Origin: a virus
Virus record (IMG/VR): IMGVR_UViG_3300034061_000930
Coordinates: 1-26,754 of that record
Direction: 5' to 3' (one strand)
Length of the DNA stretch: 26,754 nucleotides
Part shown: positions 3,770 through 10,486 of the stretch, one piece after another
Layout of the letters: each line of letters starts with the position of its first letter
Numbering within the stretch: the first letter of the stretch is position 1
The notes under the pieces: model-generated
Databases searched by the model: none
The model's input: the letters and a program-made list of their open reading frames with translations, nothing else
What the model was told of the DNA's origin: nothing
Made by a program: the position numbers and the translations under genes

Positions 3770-3810
3770 CTTGATTCTCCTTAAAAGACCGCTTGCTGCG
3801 GCATGGTTGC

Positions 3811-3840
3811 ATTGTAAGCCCGCTTTACACGGGCAGTCAA
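3811..3840 (-). promoter_or_regulatory. Predicted leftward promoter P2 with embedded operator
   Basis: On the minus strand TTGACT (3840-3835) and TACAAT (3816-3811) are separated by 18 bases, a good sigma70-type match. The spacer ends in the GTAAAG...CTTAC pseudo-palindrome, whose last half overlaps the -10. It lies about 40 bases upstream of the gene beginning at 3769 and downstream of the gene ending at 3860. Between the promoter and the start codon are a small CCGC-AGCAA-GCGG hairpin and a TCTTTTAAGGAGAATCAAG leader. Confidence 0.65.
3814..3828. promoter_or_regulatory. Operator copy O1 (15-bp pseudo-palindrome)
   Basis: Minus-strand reading GTAAAGCGGGCTTAC. The half sites GTAAAG and GTAAGC are inverted about a GC-rich centre. 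It overlaps the -10 of the predicted promoter for the gene at 3769, so binding there would block RNA polymerase. It is the only copy outside the main control region. Confidence 0.65.
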
Positions 3841-3859
3841 GAGTTTTGACGATAAATTT

Positions 3860-4402
3860 TTATGCTGCCAACCGACCAACAGCGCCGTAGCCGTAACCGT
3901 CGTCACCCAGGAAGGCGACACGGGCCAGCGTGGGGCTTTCTGCTGCATCGTCGGCGCTGTACTCGCTGACCTTGGCCATGATGCGCCGTTCGGTGTCGTA
4001 GTCCAGCCGGTCTGCAATGTATGCGCCGCTGTAACCTTCAACAACTGCGGGCGTTGCGTAGCCGTAATACTTGCAAGCGTTGGCCACTAAGTTGGTCAGC
4101 AATGCAACGCTAAACCTACGATTGACGAAAATGAAGTCAGCGCCGAACCGAACTTCTTCACCGTCCAGGCTGCTGTAGTTGCTGCCCTTGTAGTCGGTCA
4201 TGCCGTCGAAGTAAGAACCCTCAAACATTCCGACAACACCTTTGACTTGTTCGTAGGTAGGGCCGTCTGTGTAAGCCACAGTAATGCTTGCGCCGCCAGC
4301 GTAAACGCTCGACTTGACGCTGAACTTGACTCCGGGAAATGCTTCTTTGAGGGCGGCGCGAACCAACTTTGCGGTTTCGGCACAGGTGAGATATTTAGCC
4401 AT
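3860..4402 (-). CDS. LPD29-domain-like protein, first gene of leftward operon
   Basis: A 180-residue protein. The first ~75 residues match the pattern of the 'large polyvalent protein associated domain 29' (LPD29): C-A-E-T-A-K-L-V-R-A-A-L-K-E-A-F-P-G, then K-S-S-V-Y-A-G-G-A-S-I-T-V-A-Y-T-D-G-P-T and F-D-G-M-T-D. This domain is common in phages and mobile elements, either alone or fused in giant proteins; its biochemistry is not established. The C-terminal half, rich in Tyr and Ala, is not recognised. It is the first gene after the leftward promoter at 4450-4478, so it should be among the earliest and most abundant products, which fits a host-takeover or anti-defence role by inference only. 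Confidence 0.7.
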   Translation of the reverse strand: MAKYLTCAETAKLVRAALKEAFPGVKFSVKSSVYAGGASITVAYTDGPTYEQVKGVVGMFEGSYFDGMTDYKGSNYSSLDGEEVRFGADFIFVNRRFSVALLTNLVANACKYYGYATPAVVEGYSGAYIADRLDYDTERRIMAKVSEYSADDAAESPTLARVAFLGDDGYGYGAVGRLAA

Positions 4403-4449
4403 CTTGATTCTCCTAAAAGACCCCGTGCAATGTGCTAGGGCATGGGTGA

Positions 4450-4478
4450 ACTGTAAGCCACCTTTACATGCATGTCAA
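4450..4478 (-). promoter_or_regulatory. Predicted main leftward promoter P1 (PL-like)
   Basis: On the minus strand a perfect TTGACA (4478-4473) and TACAGT (4455-4450) are 17 bases apart. Operator O2 fills the spacer and overlaps the -10. It reads into the LPD29-like gene through a leader with a CCC...GGGG inverted repeat and TCTTTTAGGAGAATCAAG before the ATG. The position and control mirror lambda PL. Confidence 0.75.
4453..4467. promoter_or_regulatory. Operator copy O2
   Basis: Minus-strand reading GTAAAGGTGGCTTAC, the same half sites as the other copies. It is inside the spacer and -10 of the main leftward promoter. The distance to O3 is 36 bp. Confidence 0.7.
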
Positions 4479-4488
4479 CACCTACCAT

Positions 4489-4503
4489 GTAAAGCCCCCT
4501 TAC
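4489..4503. promoter_or_regulatory. Operator copy O3
   Basis: Plus-strand reading GTAAAGCCCCCTTAC. It lies between the divergent promoters, about 36-37 bp from both O2 and O4, and unlike the others is not on an obvious promoter -10. A central site of this kind could allow cooperative binding, as in lambdoid operators. Confidence 0.65.
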
Positions 4504-4514
4504 ATTTGTCGGGT

Positions 4515-4543
4515 ATCGGTAACCAGTAAAGACCGCTTACAAT
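4515..4543 (+). promoter_or_regulatory. Predicted rightward cro promoter (weak -35)
   Basis: A good -10, TACAAT at 4538-4543, overlaps operator O4. The sequence 17 bases upstream (ATCGGT) is a poor -35, so the promoter may need an activator or may be weak. The expected start point, about seven bases after the -10, falls on the A of the cro ATG, which would make a leaderless mRNA. Confidence 0.5.
4526..4540. promoter_or_regulatory. Operator copy O4
   Basis: Plus-strand reading GTAAAGACCGCTTAC. It overlaps the -10 of the cro promoter in the same relative phase that O1 and O2 have to their promoters, which predicts autorepression. Confidence 0.7.
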
Positions 4544-4549
4544 CAGGGG

Positions 4550-4711
4550 ATGGACACGACAAAGGCTATTGAACTCGCAGGAACGGCTATGGCCTTGGCC
4601 AAGCTGCTGGGCATCACACGCCAGGCGATTTCGCAGTGGGGTGACCAGGTGCCCCAGGCCCGCGTGTGGCAGTTGAGGGCTTTAAAGCCGGAGTGGTTCA
4701 AGAACGGTTGA
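4550..4711 (+). CDS. cro: Cro-like small helix-turn-helix repressor
   Basis: A 53-residue protein with one helix-turn-helix: A-M-A-L-A-K-L-L-G-I-T-R-Q-A-I-S-Q-W-G spans about residues 13-31, with the recognition helix around R-Q-A-I-S-Q-W. The ending W-Q-L-R-A-L-K-P-E-W-F is typical of lambdoid Cro and YdaS-like proteins. It should bind as a dimer to the 15-bp pseudo-palindromes next to it and shut off both divergent promoters. It is shorter than most annotation cut-offs. The ATG directly follows AGGGG with no useful spacing, consistent with leaderless translation. Its TGA stop is part of the TTGACA of the next promoter. No CI-type repressor is visible, so whether this phage makes lysogens cannot be told from this window. 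Confidence 0.85.
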   Translation: MDTTKAIELAGTAMALAKLLGITRQAISQWGDQVPQARVWQLRALKPEWFKNG

Positions 4712-4737
4712 CAAGGAATTTTTTGGTGATATACAAT
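4708..4737 (+). promoter_or_regulatory. Strong predicted promoter downstream of cro
   Basis: A perfect TTGACA (4708-4713) overlapping the cro stop codon and TACAAT (4732-4737) are separated by 18 bases containing an A/T-rich stretch. No operator copy overlaps it, so unlike the other promoters here it should escape Cro repression. The predicted start near 4744 coincides with the first base of a hairpin, which supports a discrete RNA product. Confidence 0.65.
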
Positions 4738-4743
4738 CCGAAT

Positions 4744-4900
4744 CGTCTAGAGTGGCATCTAGGCGAAGAACTGGTAGAAACCCCGCAGAGTCCTGTGTGG
4801 TCTTGTCGTACGGCAAGCGAGTCTTTTGACCAGTTCAATCGCCTTGCTGTTGCTCTCGCCAAGAGCCAAGACCACAGAGTGCTTTGCGGGGTTTTTGCTT
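4744..4900 (+). ncRNA. Candidate structured small RNA with terminal T-run
   Basis: The predicted transcript starts with an 8-bp hairpin (4744-4751 with 4758-4765, loop GTGGCA). A long imperfect hairpin follows: AAACCCCGCA (4778-4787) pairs with TGCGGGGTTT (4885-4894), and TGTGGTCTTG (4796-4805) pairs with CAAGACCACA (4867-4876). The eight bases between these two helices are largely pairable too, with wobbles and two mismatches. An apical helix GGC...GAG with CTC...GCC can form. The right side runs into TTTTTGCTTTT, an intrinsic-terminator-like end. The length would be about 150 nt. No convincing reading frame is present. It could be a free regulatory RNA (long-hairpin RNAs such as 6S are a formal analogy), or an antitermination/attenuation leader in the position of lambda nutR/tR1. 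Structure is seen; function is inference. Confidence 0.55.
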
Positions 4901-5241
4901 TTGCAGACCGTACTCCGCACGAAGTAGGGGCCGCAAGTGGGGCTGCTCGGAAGGAAACCGCGACACGGTATGCCGTAAGGCTAGGGGGCAGTTCCCGAAC
5001 AATCCGTGCGGCTGGTCGAATCATCAAGCCGAGGGGCATACGGTGAGAATCCGTAGCATGATGATCCCGCAAGGGGGTGGAACCTGTTCCTTCTTACTTC
5101 ACTGTTGTGGGGTAGGGGGGTCTTTGGGTGGAATTTATTGAATTTGATTTTTGAGACACGGCTAGGTCTGGATTGATCCCCAGACCGAAAAGCGCACCTC
5201 CCGCCTGCCGCTGTTTCTTTTCAGGAGGAGCAGGAGTTGTT
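4901..5241 (+). other. GC-rich structured untranslated region upstream of the replication genes
   Basis: About 340 bases with no plausible gene. Visible structure includes a 7-bp long-range pairing CCGCACG (4915-4921) with CGTGCGG (5005-5011) and GTATGCC (4968-4974) with GGCATAC (5035-5041); together these would form a pseudoknot. There are also hairpins CGGCT/AGCCG (5009-5031), ACGG...CCGT (5040-5053) and CCC-GCAA-GGG with a GNRA loop (5066-5075). GGAAC-CT-GTTCC at 5079-5090 is operator-like. G-runs occur at 5109-5131. GGTCTGG/CCAGACC (5165-5186) is a 7-bp hairpin close to the next gene. It may be an RNA element, a leader, or part of a replication origin; nothing here decides between them. 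Confidence 0.4.
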
Positions 5242-9015: not shown

Positions 9016-9918
9016 ATGGCTATCCCGCTGTCAGAACTGGCAGCGGCGGGGCAGCAGCAGCCACAAGCTGCGACCACCCAAGGAAACTTGGCATCGCTGG
9101 TTCCGCAGCCGCCCCAGTTATCGGGCAATCCGATTGAATCGGCGTATTTCGACCGTCTGACCAATGATTACAAGGGTCTGACGCAAGAGTACGCTGCTTT
9201 GCCGTCTACGGACGGAGGGCGCATTCTAAACACGGATGACGCCCGCGAGATGTCGCCAGAGTACCGCGCAGACCGCACCAGGTCTGCTGACGTACATGAG
9301 CCGTCATCGGCATTCGTCAAACAGATGTATGCCCAAAGACTATCTGAAGACACCCCTACGGGCCGTGACAACACGGTTTTGTTCACCGCGGGTGGAACAG
9401 GGGCTGGTAAGACGACCGGCCTTCAGATGGTTCAAAACGTCCATCCTGATATCAAGAACGCGGAAATGGTGTACGACACCAACATGAACACGTTCGAATC
9501 CGCGGACAAAAAGATCAAACAAGCCTTGGATGCTGGCCGCAAGGTCAGTATTGTGTACACCTACCGTGACCCCGTAGAAGCCCTGGAAAACGGTGCATTG
9601 AAGCGGGCCAGCCGTATGGAGGCTGAGATTGGTACAGGCCGCACGGTGCCCATAGATGAGCATTTCAAGACTCATGCGGGATCGCGTGAAGTGATGGATC
9701 GGCTACAAGCCAAGTATGGTGATGACCACAGGTTTTCGTTGATGGTGGTTGACAACAGCCGCGGCCCTAAAAAAGCAGTTGTAAGCAGCCTTGACAAATT
9801 GCCTAAACTAGACCATACTCAGGTACGGAAAGGACTTAATGATGCACTCGAAAATGCCTACCGCACCGGGCAGATTAGCCCCGCCATCTACCAAGGAACG
9901 CGTGGCAACTCCCGCTGA
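9016..9918 (+). CDS. Zeta-toxin-like P-loop kinase
   Basis: A 300-residue protein. After a ~90-residue variable, Gln/Pro-rich region comes the zeta-type kinase core: E-P-S-S-A-F-V-K-Q-M-Y, Walker A G-G-T-G-A-G-K-T-T (residues 126-134), V-Y-D-T-N-M-N (about 152-158), T-Y-R-D-P-V-E-A-L-E-N-G-A (about 182-194), then E-E/D-H-like P-I-D-E-H-F-K-T-H and V-V-D-N-S-R-G. Known zeta toxins phosphorylate UDP-N-acetylglucosamine and block wall synthesis. Phage homologues are often of unproven activity. No epsilon antitoxin is recognisable next to it, so it may not be a toxin-antitoxin module. The start codon has only weak Shine-Dalgarno support and follows the previous stop directly. Confidence 0.82.
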   Translation: MAIPLSELAAAGQQQPQAATTQGNLASLVPQPPQLSGNPIESAYFDRLTNDYKGLTQEYAALPSTDGGRILNTDDAREMSPEYRADRTRSADVHEPSSAFVKQMYAQRLSEDTPTGRDNTVLFTAGGTGAGKTTGLQMVQNVHPDIKNAEMVYDTNMNTFESADKKIKQALDAGRKVSIVYTYRDPVEALENGALKRASRMEAEIGTGRTVPIDEHFKTHAGSREVMDRLQAKYGDDHRFSLMVVDNSRGPKKAVVSSLDKLPKLDHTQVRKGLNDALENAYRTGQISPAIYQGTRGNSR

Positions 9919-10021: not shown

Positions 10022-10239
10022 GCGATGCCCGCTGCAAGACTTGTCGGTTTTTCACCCAAGCGCAAGTGATGGGTGTCTGCCGCAGGTTTCCAGAACACCA
10101 GAACAAACATGAGTTGGACTGGTGTGGTGAGCATCAACTGGCCACGATCATTGCCCTGCCTGTGCTGACACCAGAACAGGTGGCACAGCGCAAAAAGCCT
10201 GGAAGGAAGCCCAATGTGCCCGATTCAACCGCTGCGTGA
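10018..10239 (+). CDS. Four-cysteine small zinc-binding-type protein (73 aa)
   Basis: A 73-residue protein with C-K-T-C-R-F-F (Cys6, Cys9), G-V-C-R-R-F-P (Cys21) and D-W-C-G-E-H (Cys36). This is a recurring phage pattern that suggests a single zinc or metal site, of unknown function. The tail is basic (R-K-K-P-G-R-K-P). It starts in an ATGA overlap and its end overlaps the co-chaperonin gene by 26 bases. Confidence 0.75.
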   Translation: MSDARCKTCRFFTQAQVMGVCRRFPEHQNKHELDWCGEHQLATIIALPVLTPEQVAQRKKPGRKPNVPDSTAA

Positions 10240-10486
10240 TCGCGTAGTGATCCAGCCCCGTGTCCGCAAGTTGTCGGACATTATTTTCACTATCAACAGT
10301 GAAAAGATGAACGAGGGCACGATTGTGGCCATCGGGCCGGACGTTCACGAAGTCAGGCCAGGCGATTTCGTCAAATACGGCAACGGCACCTATCTGGATT
10401 GGCCTGTTCAGCATTTTGACGGCCAGGACTACCAGATCATTCAGGAAGCCGACATCGCGTGTGTCGTGGAGGAAGATCATGCCTAA
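10214..10486 (+). CDS. GroES-like co-chaperonin (Cpn10 family)
   Basis: A 90-residue Cpn10-family protein. It has I-Q-P-L-R-D-R-V-V-I-Q at the start, a mobile-loop-like segment with the hydrophobic I-I-F-T (position of GroES I-V-L-T, which contacts GroEL), then E-G-T-I-V-A-I-G-P, V-R-P-G-D-F-V-K-Y-G and I-I-Q-E-A-D-I-A-C-V-V-E at the end. Phage co-chaperonins such as T4 gp31 replace or complement host GroES so that GroEL can fold the capsid protein. Its place upstream of the terminase and coat genes fits that. A good AAGGAAG site precedes the ATG. Confidence 0.88.
   Translation: MCPIQPLRDRVVIQPRVRKLSDIIFTINSEKMNEGTIVAIGPDVHEVRPGDFVKYGNGTYLDWPVQHFDGQDYQIIQEADIACVVEEDHA

Follow-up and report, generated by a model that had tools for sequence, protein, structure and literature searches.

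How transcription is organised around a small Cro-like gene, and whether that gene does the work usually shared with a prophage repressor, is the question raised by a region of IMG/VR record IMGVR_UViG_3300034061_000930 (positions 1-26,754; the whole of these 26,754 nt is called the window). Four exact copies of the pattern GTAAAG-N3-S-CTTAC are present at 3814-3828 (-), 4453-4467 (-), 4489-4503 (+) and 4526-4540 (+). A reading made from the letters alone (the sequence-only reading) had pointed out these four 15-mers and the 36 and 37 bp spacing of the three main copies, and both observations hold. With up to two mismatches the window contains seven matches where 1.75 would be expected; a count of seven was not attained in any of 100 shuffles, and the reversed pattern, used as a control, had no match in the window, which rules out a chance origin. 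The natural frame of the sites is better written GTNAAG-N4-CTTAC, so that the palindromic core is AAG-N4-CTT, the core found in P22 operators, and the family is larger than the four copies first described, a fifth site at 9781-9795 having been missed. Three sites are clustered at 4453-4540 between a leftward promoter and the promoter of cro, immediately beside this gene, as in the immunity regions of lambdoid phages, and the operators adjoining the gene have the core expected for the P22 Cro family.

The cro gene (4550-4711, +) encodes a protein of 53 residues with the recognition helix ITRQAISQW. It matches the Pfam family P22_Cro (PF14549) with 47.6 bits against a cut-off of 30.2 and, more weakly, YdaS, and its best match in the PDB is 1rzs, "Regulatory protein cro", the structure of P22 Cro (E 2e-4). 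Among annotated phage proteins, even the nearest do not exceed 50% identity to it. The system shares with P22 the protein family, the top solved-structure match and the operator core, but differs in that no c2 repressor or integrase was found here, in the outer half-site bases (GTNAAG/GTAAG), and in carrying further operators, both in separate leftward cassettes and at a predicted late promoter. The Cro protein of Yersinia phage PY54 is 45% identical to that of the window. In the telomere phages PY54 and phiKO2, which have the most closely related Cro proteins of this fold to have been studied, Cro binds one operator (OR3) and represses only the prophage repressor, not itself (PMC4488713, PMC4997575); because each of these proteins binds a single operator, a broad Cro regulon cannot be assumed from family membership. 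In contrast to both phages, four to six operators are distributed over several promoters here, and no prophage repressor is seen.

Three of the four copies had been placed in the -10 elements of promoters, and the ends of these operators do coincide with TACAAT (3816-3811), TACAGT (4455-4450) and TACAAT (4538-4543). The two leftward promoters also have good -35 elements. The first leftward early promoter (4450-4478, -) is predicted to consist of TTGACA (4478-4473), the operator (4467-4453) and TACAGT, and is followed by a hairpin leader and ribosome site (CATGCCC...GGGGTCTTTTAGGAG; 4403-4449, -) in front of a gene for a 180-residue LPD29-domain protein. The second (3811-3840, -) combines TTGACT, the operator (3828-3814) and TACAAT, followed by another copy of the hairpin leader (CATGCCGCAGCAAGCGGTCTTTTAAGGAG; 3770-3810, -) in front of a gene for a 57-residue protein (3769-3596). 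The arrangement is the same in both: TTGAC, 7 bp, operator, AAT, a short hairpin (CATGCC...GGTCTTTT), AAGGAG and the start codon. Nearly every relative has this cassette at the start of between one and three leftward genes. Genes of 15 families follow it, and the stem of its leader shows covariation among copies (CCG/CGG versus CCC/GGG); the conservation is thus no by-product of a single conserved gene neighbourhood. The site at 3814, which had been described as a remote operator, is, to judge from these comparisons, one copy of a portable cassette carrying a predicted -35, operator, -10, hairpin leader and ribosome site.

Short regulatory sequences that recur many times in one genome, before genes of different families, have been described as stoperators in mycobacteriophage L5 and as SAS/ESAS in Cluster K phages (PMC3203893). 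The present repeats are similar in occurring in many copies across one phage genome and in standing before various gene families, but each copy lies in a promoter (-10 or -35), is associated with a Cro-type repressor and comes with a hairpin leader. SAS/ESAS elements are tied to translation starts, whereas here the operator lies in the promoter hexamers and it is the leader alone that extends to the start codon.

The operator at 4526-4540 (+) covers the -10 of the cro promoter, which ends 6 nt before the ATG. For this promoter no -35 is recognisable in the window, a point that counts against the explanation that we prefer; in most relatives a -35 is present 17 bp from the -10, as TTGCAA or TTGACG. 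All 38 distinct upstream regions from the close groups, including one (L043) with GGAG upstream of the ATG, have the end of the -10 at 6 or 7 nt from the cro ATG, and the exceptions, two of 40 upstream regions, belong to the outgroups L057 and L058. With this distance the mRNA should start at or beside the start codon, and a leaderless cro mRNA is predicted for every close group. The cro mRNA of PY54 has been shown to be leaderless by RACE (PMC4488713).

The divergent promoters, three operators and cro resemble a lambdoid OR region, and the related phages PY54 and phiKO2 are temperate (PMC4488713, PMC4997575). The region could accordingly be the ordinary immunity region of a temperate phage, in which a second, unrecognised prophage repressor binds the same operators and Cro is one half of a switch. 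Searches of the window and 24 close relatives (up to 38 kb) gave no integrase of the family PF00589, no S24 peptidase (PF00717) and no HTH_3 match above the cut-off, whereas the record of outgroup L058 has all three. The gene facing cro differs among relatives, being the LPD29 gene or others, and in the families scanned it never resembles a repressor gene. Neither a CI/c2-type repressor gene facing cro nor an integrase or other lysogeny module, as a lambdoid switch would have, is thus apparent among the families searched for in these possibly incomplete records. Since many of the records may be fragments, a repressor may lie in their missing part, or it may be of an unrecognised family. Alcaligenes phage Piluca likewise has a P22-Cro-like "lytic repressor" between leftward recombination and rightward replication genes, but in that phage an annotated immunity repressor faces cro, and its Cro is 35% identical to that of the window. 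On balance, we regard an ordinary immunity region as unlikely. The explanation that we hold with good confidence is a P22-like phage region with a Cro-only, cI-less negative-feedback regulon, the operators of which lie inside promoters.

The fifth operator, GTCAAGGCTGCTTAC (9781-9795, -; GTAAGCAGCCTTGAC on the + strand), would extend this Cro-only regulon to a different part of the genome. The last five + strand bases of the site form part of a rightward promoter's -35; this strand reads GTAAGCAGCC-TTGACA and then, after 17 bp, CATACT. This predicted late promoter (9791-9819, +; TTGACA at 9791-9796, CATACT at 9814-9819) is located inside a zeta-toxin-like gene (9016-9918), and downstream of it are genes for GroES-like, terminase, portal, scaffold and major head proteins. 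Of the genomes of this operator class, 21 extend into the region, and the site was found in every one of them. Its use as a stand-alone roadblock operator or as part of an antisense promoter was considered but set aside, because conservation is seen for the rightward -35, 17 bp spacer and -10 and not for a leftward -10. Given the conserved unit of operator, -35 and -10 with late genes downstream, positions 9791-9819 are read as a probable Cro-controlled late promoter.

As the residues V-S-x-L-D are conserved in the zeta-toxin-like protein, the fifth site might be a mere by-product of the coding sequence, neither operator nor promoter. Codon choice, however, is fixed exactly at the bases of the operator, the -35 and the -10: among the 300 codons of the gene, constraint is strongest at three, namely V256 (GTA) and L259 (CTT), at the operator and -35, and codon 268, the third base of which (T) completes the -10. 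Between the half-sites lies a codon that is free to vary, neighbouring codons vary too, and the sole AGC-to-AGT change falls beyond the half-site. For silent-site identity the VSSLD window takes first place among 118, and its value was reached by random four-codon sets in 48 of 200,000 draws, figures that ignore shared ancestry and serve as ranks. In addition, relative G002, in which the zeta-like gene was not detected, has GTAAGCCCCC-TTGACG, 17 bp and CAAAAT at the same place. A by-product of coding is quite improbable in view of these data, and the probable late promoter, if real, would be a documented instance of an operator and promoter inside a coding gene that are maintained by selection on silent sites. 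The host gene of this site encodes a zeta-toxin-like P-loop protein (PF06414) at the early/late boundary, which is replaced or lost in G002 and for which no PHROG match was obtained. The late region starts with a phage-encoded GroES-like co-chaperonin (10214-10486; phrog_3188).

Conservation of the 15-mer in relatives with a similar recognition helix, on which the sequence-only reading depended, was analysed starting from 59 IMG/VR loci retrieved with the Cro protein, and the reading withstood this test. The site and the protein go together across about 50 related IMG/VR contigs. Where the helix is ITRQAISQW or near it, operators are kept beside cro in one of two layouts, with a spacing of 36-37 bp, as in the window, or of 21-22 bp. 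In the latter, found in most relatives, the middle operator (4489-4503, + in the window, where it is an exact site) contains the TTGAC of the leftward -35; in the other relatives it stands apart. The pattern had 80 matches in 32 viral records against one for the reversed control, and in 15 genomes nearly all sites with at most one mismatch were in the cro region, in leftward leader cassettes or at one late-gene position. In an independent test, 2.9 million viral contigs were searched with nothing but the promoter-operator pattern TTGAC-N7-GTNAAG-N4-CTTACAAT, which gave 38 stretches. Fourteen were from contigs not already known through the protein; nine of these encode Cro, five end before its expected place, and none of the 14 has the cassette without Cro where Cro would be expected. 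The bacterial genome collection yielded a single diverged match only.

In distant Cro relatives with the helices ISQPAISMW or ISRSAIYMW the motif is absent, and a de novo search for AAG-N4-CTT palindromes in these groups gave one site only, in G018. In these diverged groups the operator seems to have changed along with the helix. The match between helix and operator is imperfect, since L033 and L134 have the helix ITRAAVSQW yet keep the cassette. The diverged groups (L038-L051, L059) have a perfect TATAAT in the cro promoter, ending 6-7 nt before the ATG, and other palindromes upstream of cro, such as CTTATAAT or GTATAAGCCAGCTTGAC. That the 15-mers are instead an extended promoter motif for a host regulator or an alternative polymerase would fit the fixed phase in which all copies except the middle one of the window overlap a -10 or -35, but is highly improbable, as the motif is symmetric with a P22-type core beside a P22-Cro homologue, the middle site is on the -35 in some relatives and apart in others, and relatives with diverged helices retain strong TATAAT promoters while having lost the motif.

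Thus, the one-repressor circuit with a remote operator that had been outlined from the window is supported by the assignment to the P22 Cro family, the co-occurrence of operator and Cro, and the lack of integrase and of S24 or HTH_3 repressors in the families searched. As outlined it was incomplete, lacking the portable nature of the remote operator and the fifth operator on the -35 of the probable late promoter. In this uncultured freshwater phage family, a single Cro-type repressor of 53 residues appears to run the leftward early genes and its own gene, and probably governs the late genes as well, lacking the partner repressor and the integrase that temperate relatives have. A P22-Cro family repressor and P22-type operators are apparently used alone here and spread by a cassette. 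To our knowledge, Cro-type operators on a late promoter have no earlier case in the open papers covered by our literature search, which also gave nothing relevant on cro-only lytic phages.

In the mechanism that we propose, host RNA polymerase would initiate at sigma-70-type promoters, namely two leftward early promoters (up to three elsewhere), the cro promoter and the rightward promoter into the late operon, each with an operator GTNAAG-N4-CTTAC fused to the -10 (as the start of TAC-AAT) or to the -35 (as CTTGAC). Cro dimers bound to these operators would exclude polymerase and thereby lower the expression of cro and of the leftward early genes as well as the activity of the late promoter. 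On replication, the many genome copies would titrate Cro and release the late promoter. The operators would move as promoter-operator-hairpin-ribosome-site cassettes set before differing leftward genes. The full form of this proposal, in which Cro alone regulates transcription in the whole lytic programme (the leftward early genes, the late operon and its own level), gene-copy titration sets the timing and the portable cassette subordinates newly acquired genes, is tentative, and we consider it plausible but somewhat on the doubtful side. If true, one small repressor would stand in for the CI/Cro/Q network of lambdoid phages, in a minimal natural circuit with timing from negative feedback and copy-number titration, and the phage would keep acquired genes under control by attaching a ready-made operator cassette.

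Two RNA elements were observed 3' of cro. An RNA island of about 440 bp (4708-5148), present in only 9-10 relatives, lies between cro and an int-alpA element. It has its own promoter (TTGACA-18-TACAAT) without an operator, followed by a 5' hairpin, a rod-like RNA of about 117 nt (4775-4893) ending in GGGGTTTTT with compensatory stem changes between relatives, and a second strongly conserved structured stretch at 4905-5110. The island had no match in Rfam, and a coding reading of 4738-5148 was tried and remained unsupported. The int-alpA RNA (RF02996; 5155-5228) scores 35.5 bits, just below the gathering score of 35.8, and reaches or nears the cut-off in relatives, where it follows directly after cro. 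This is the position of nutR in phage lambda, and by analogy the int-alpA RNA could have a role in antitermination.
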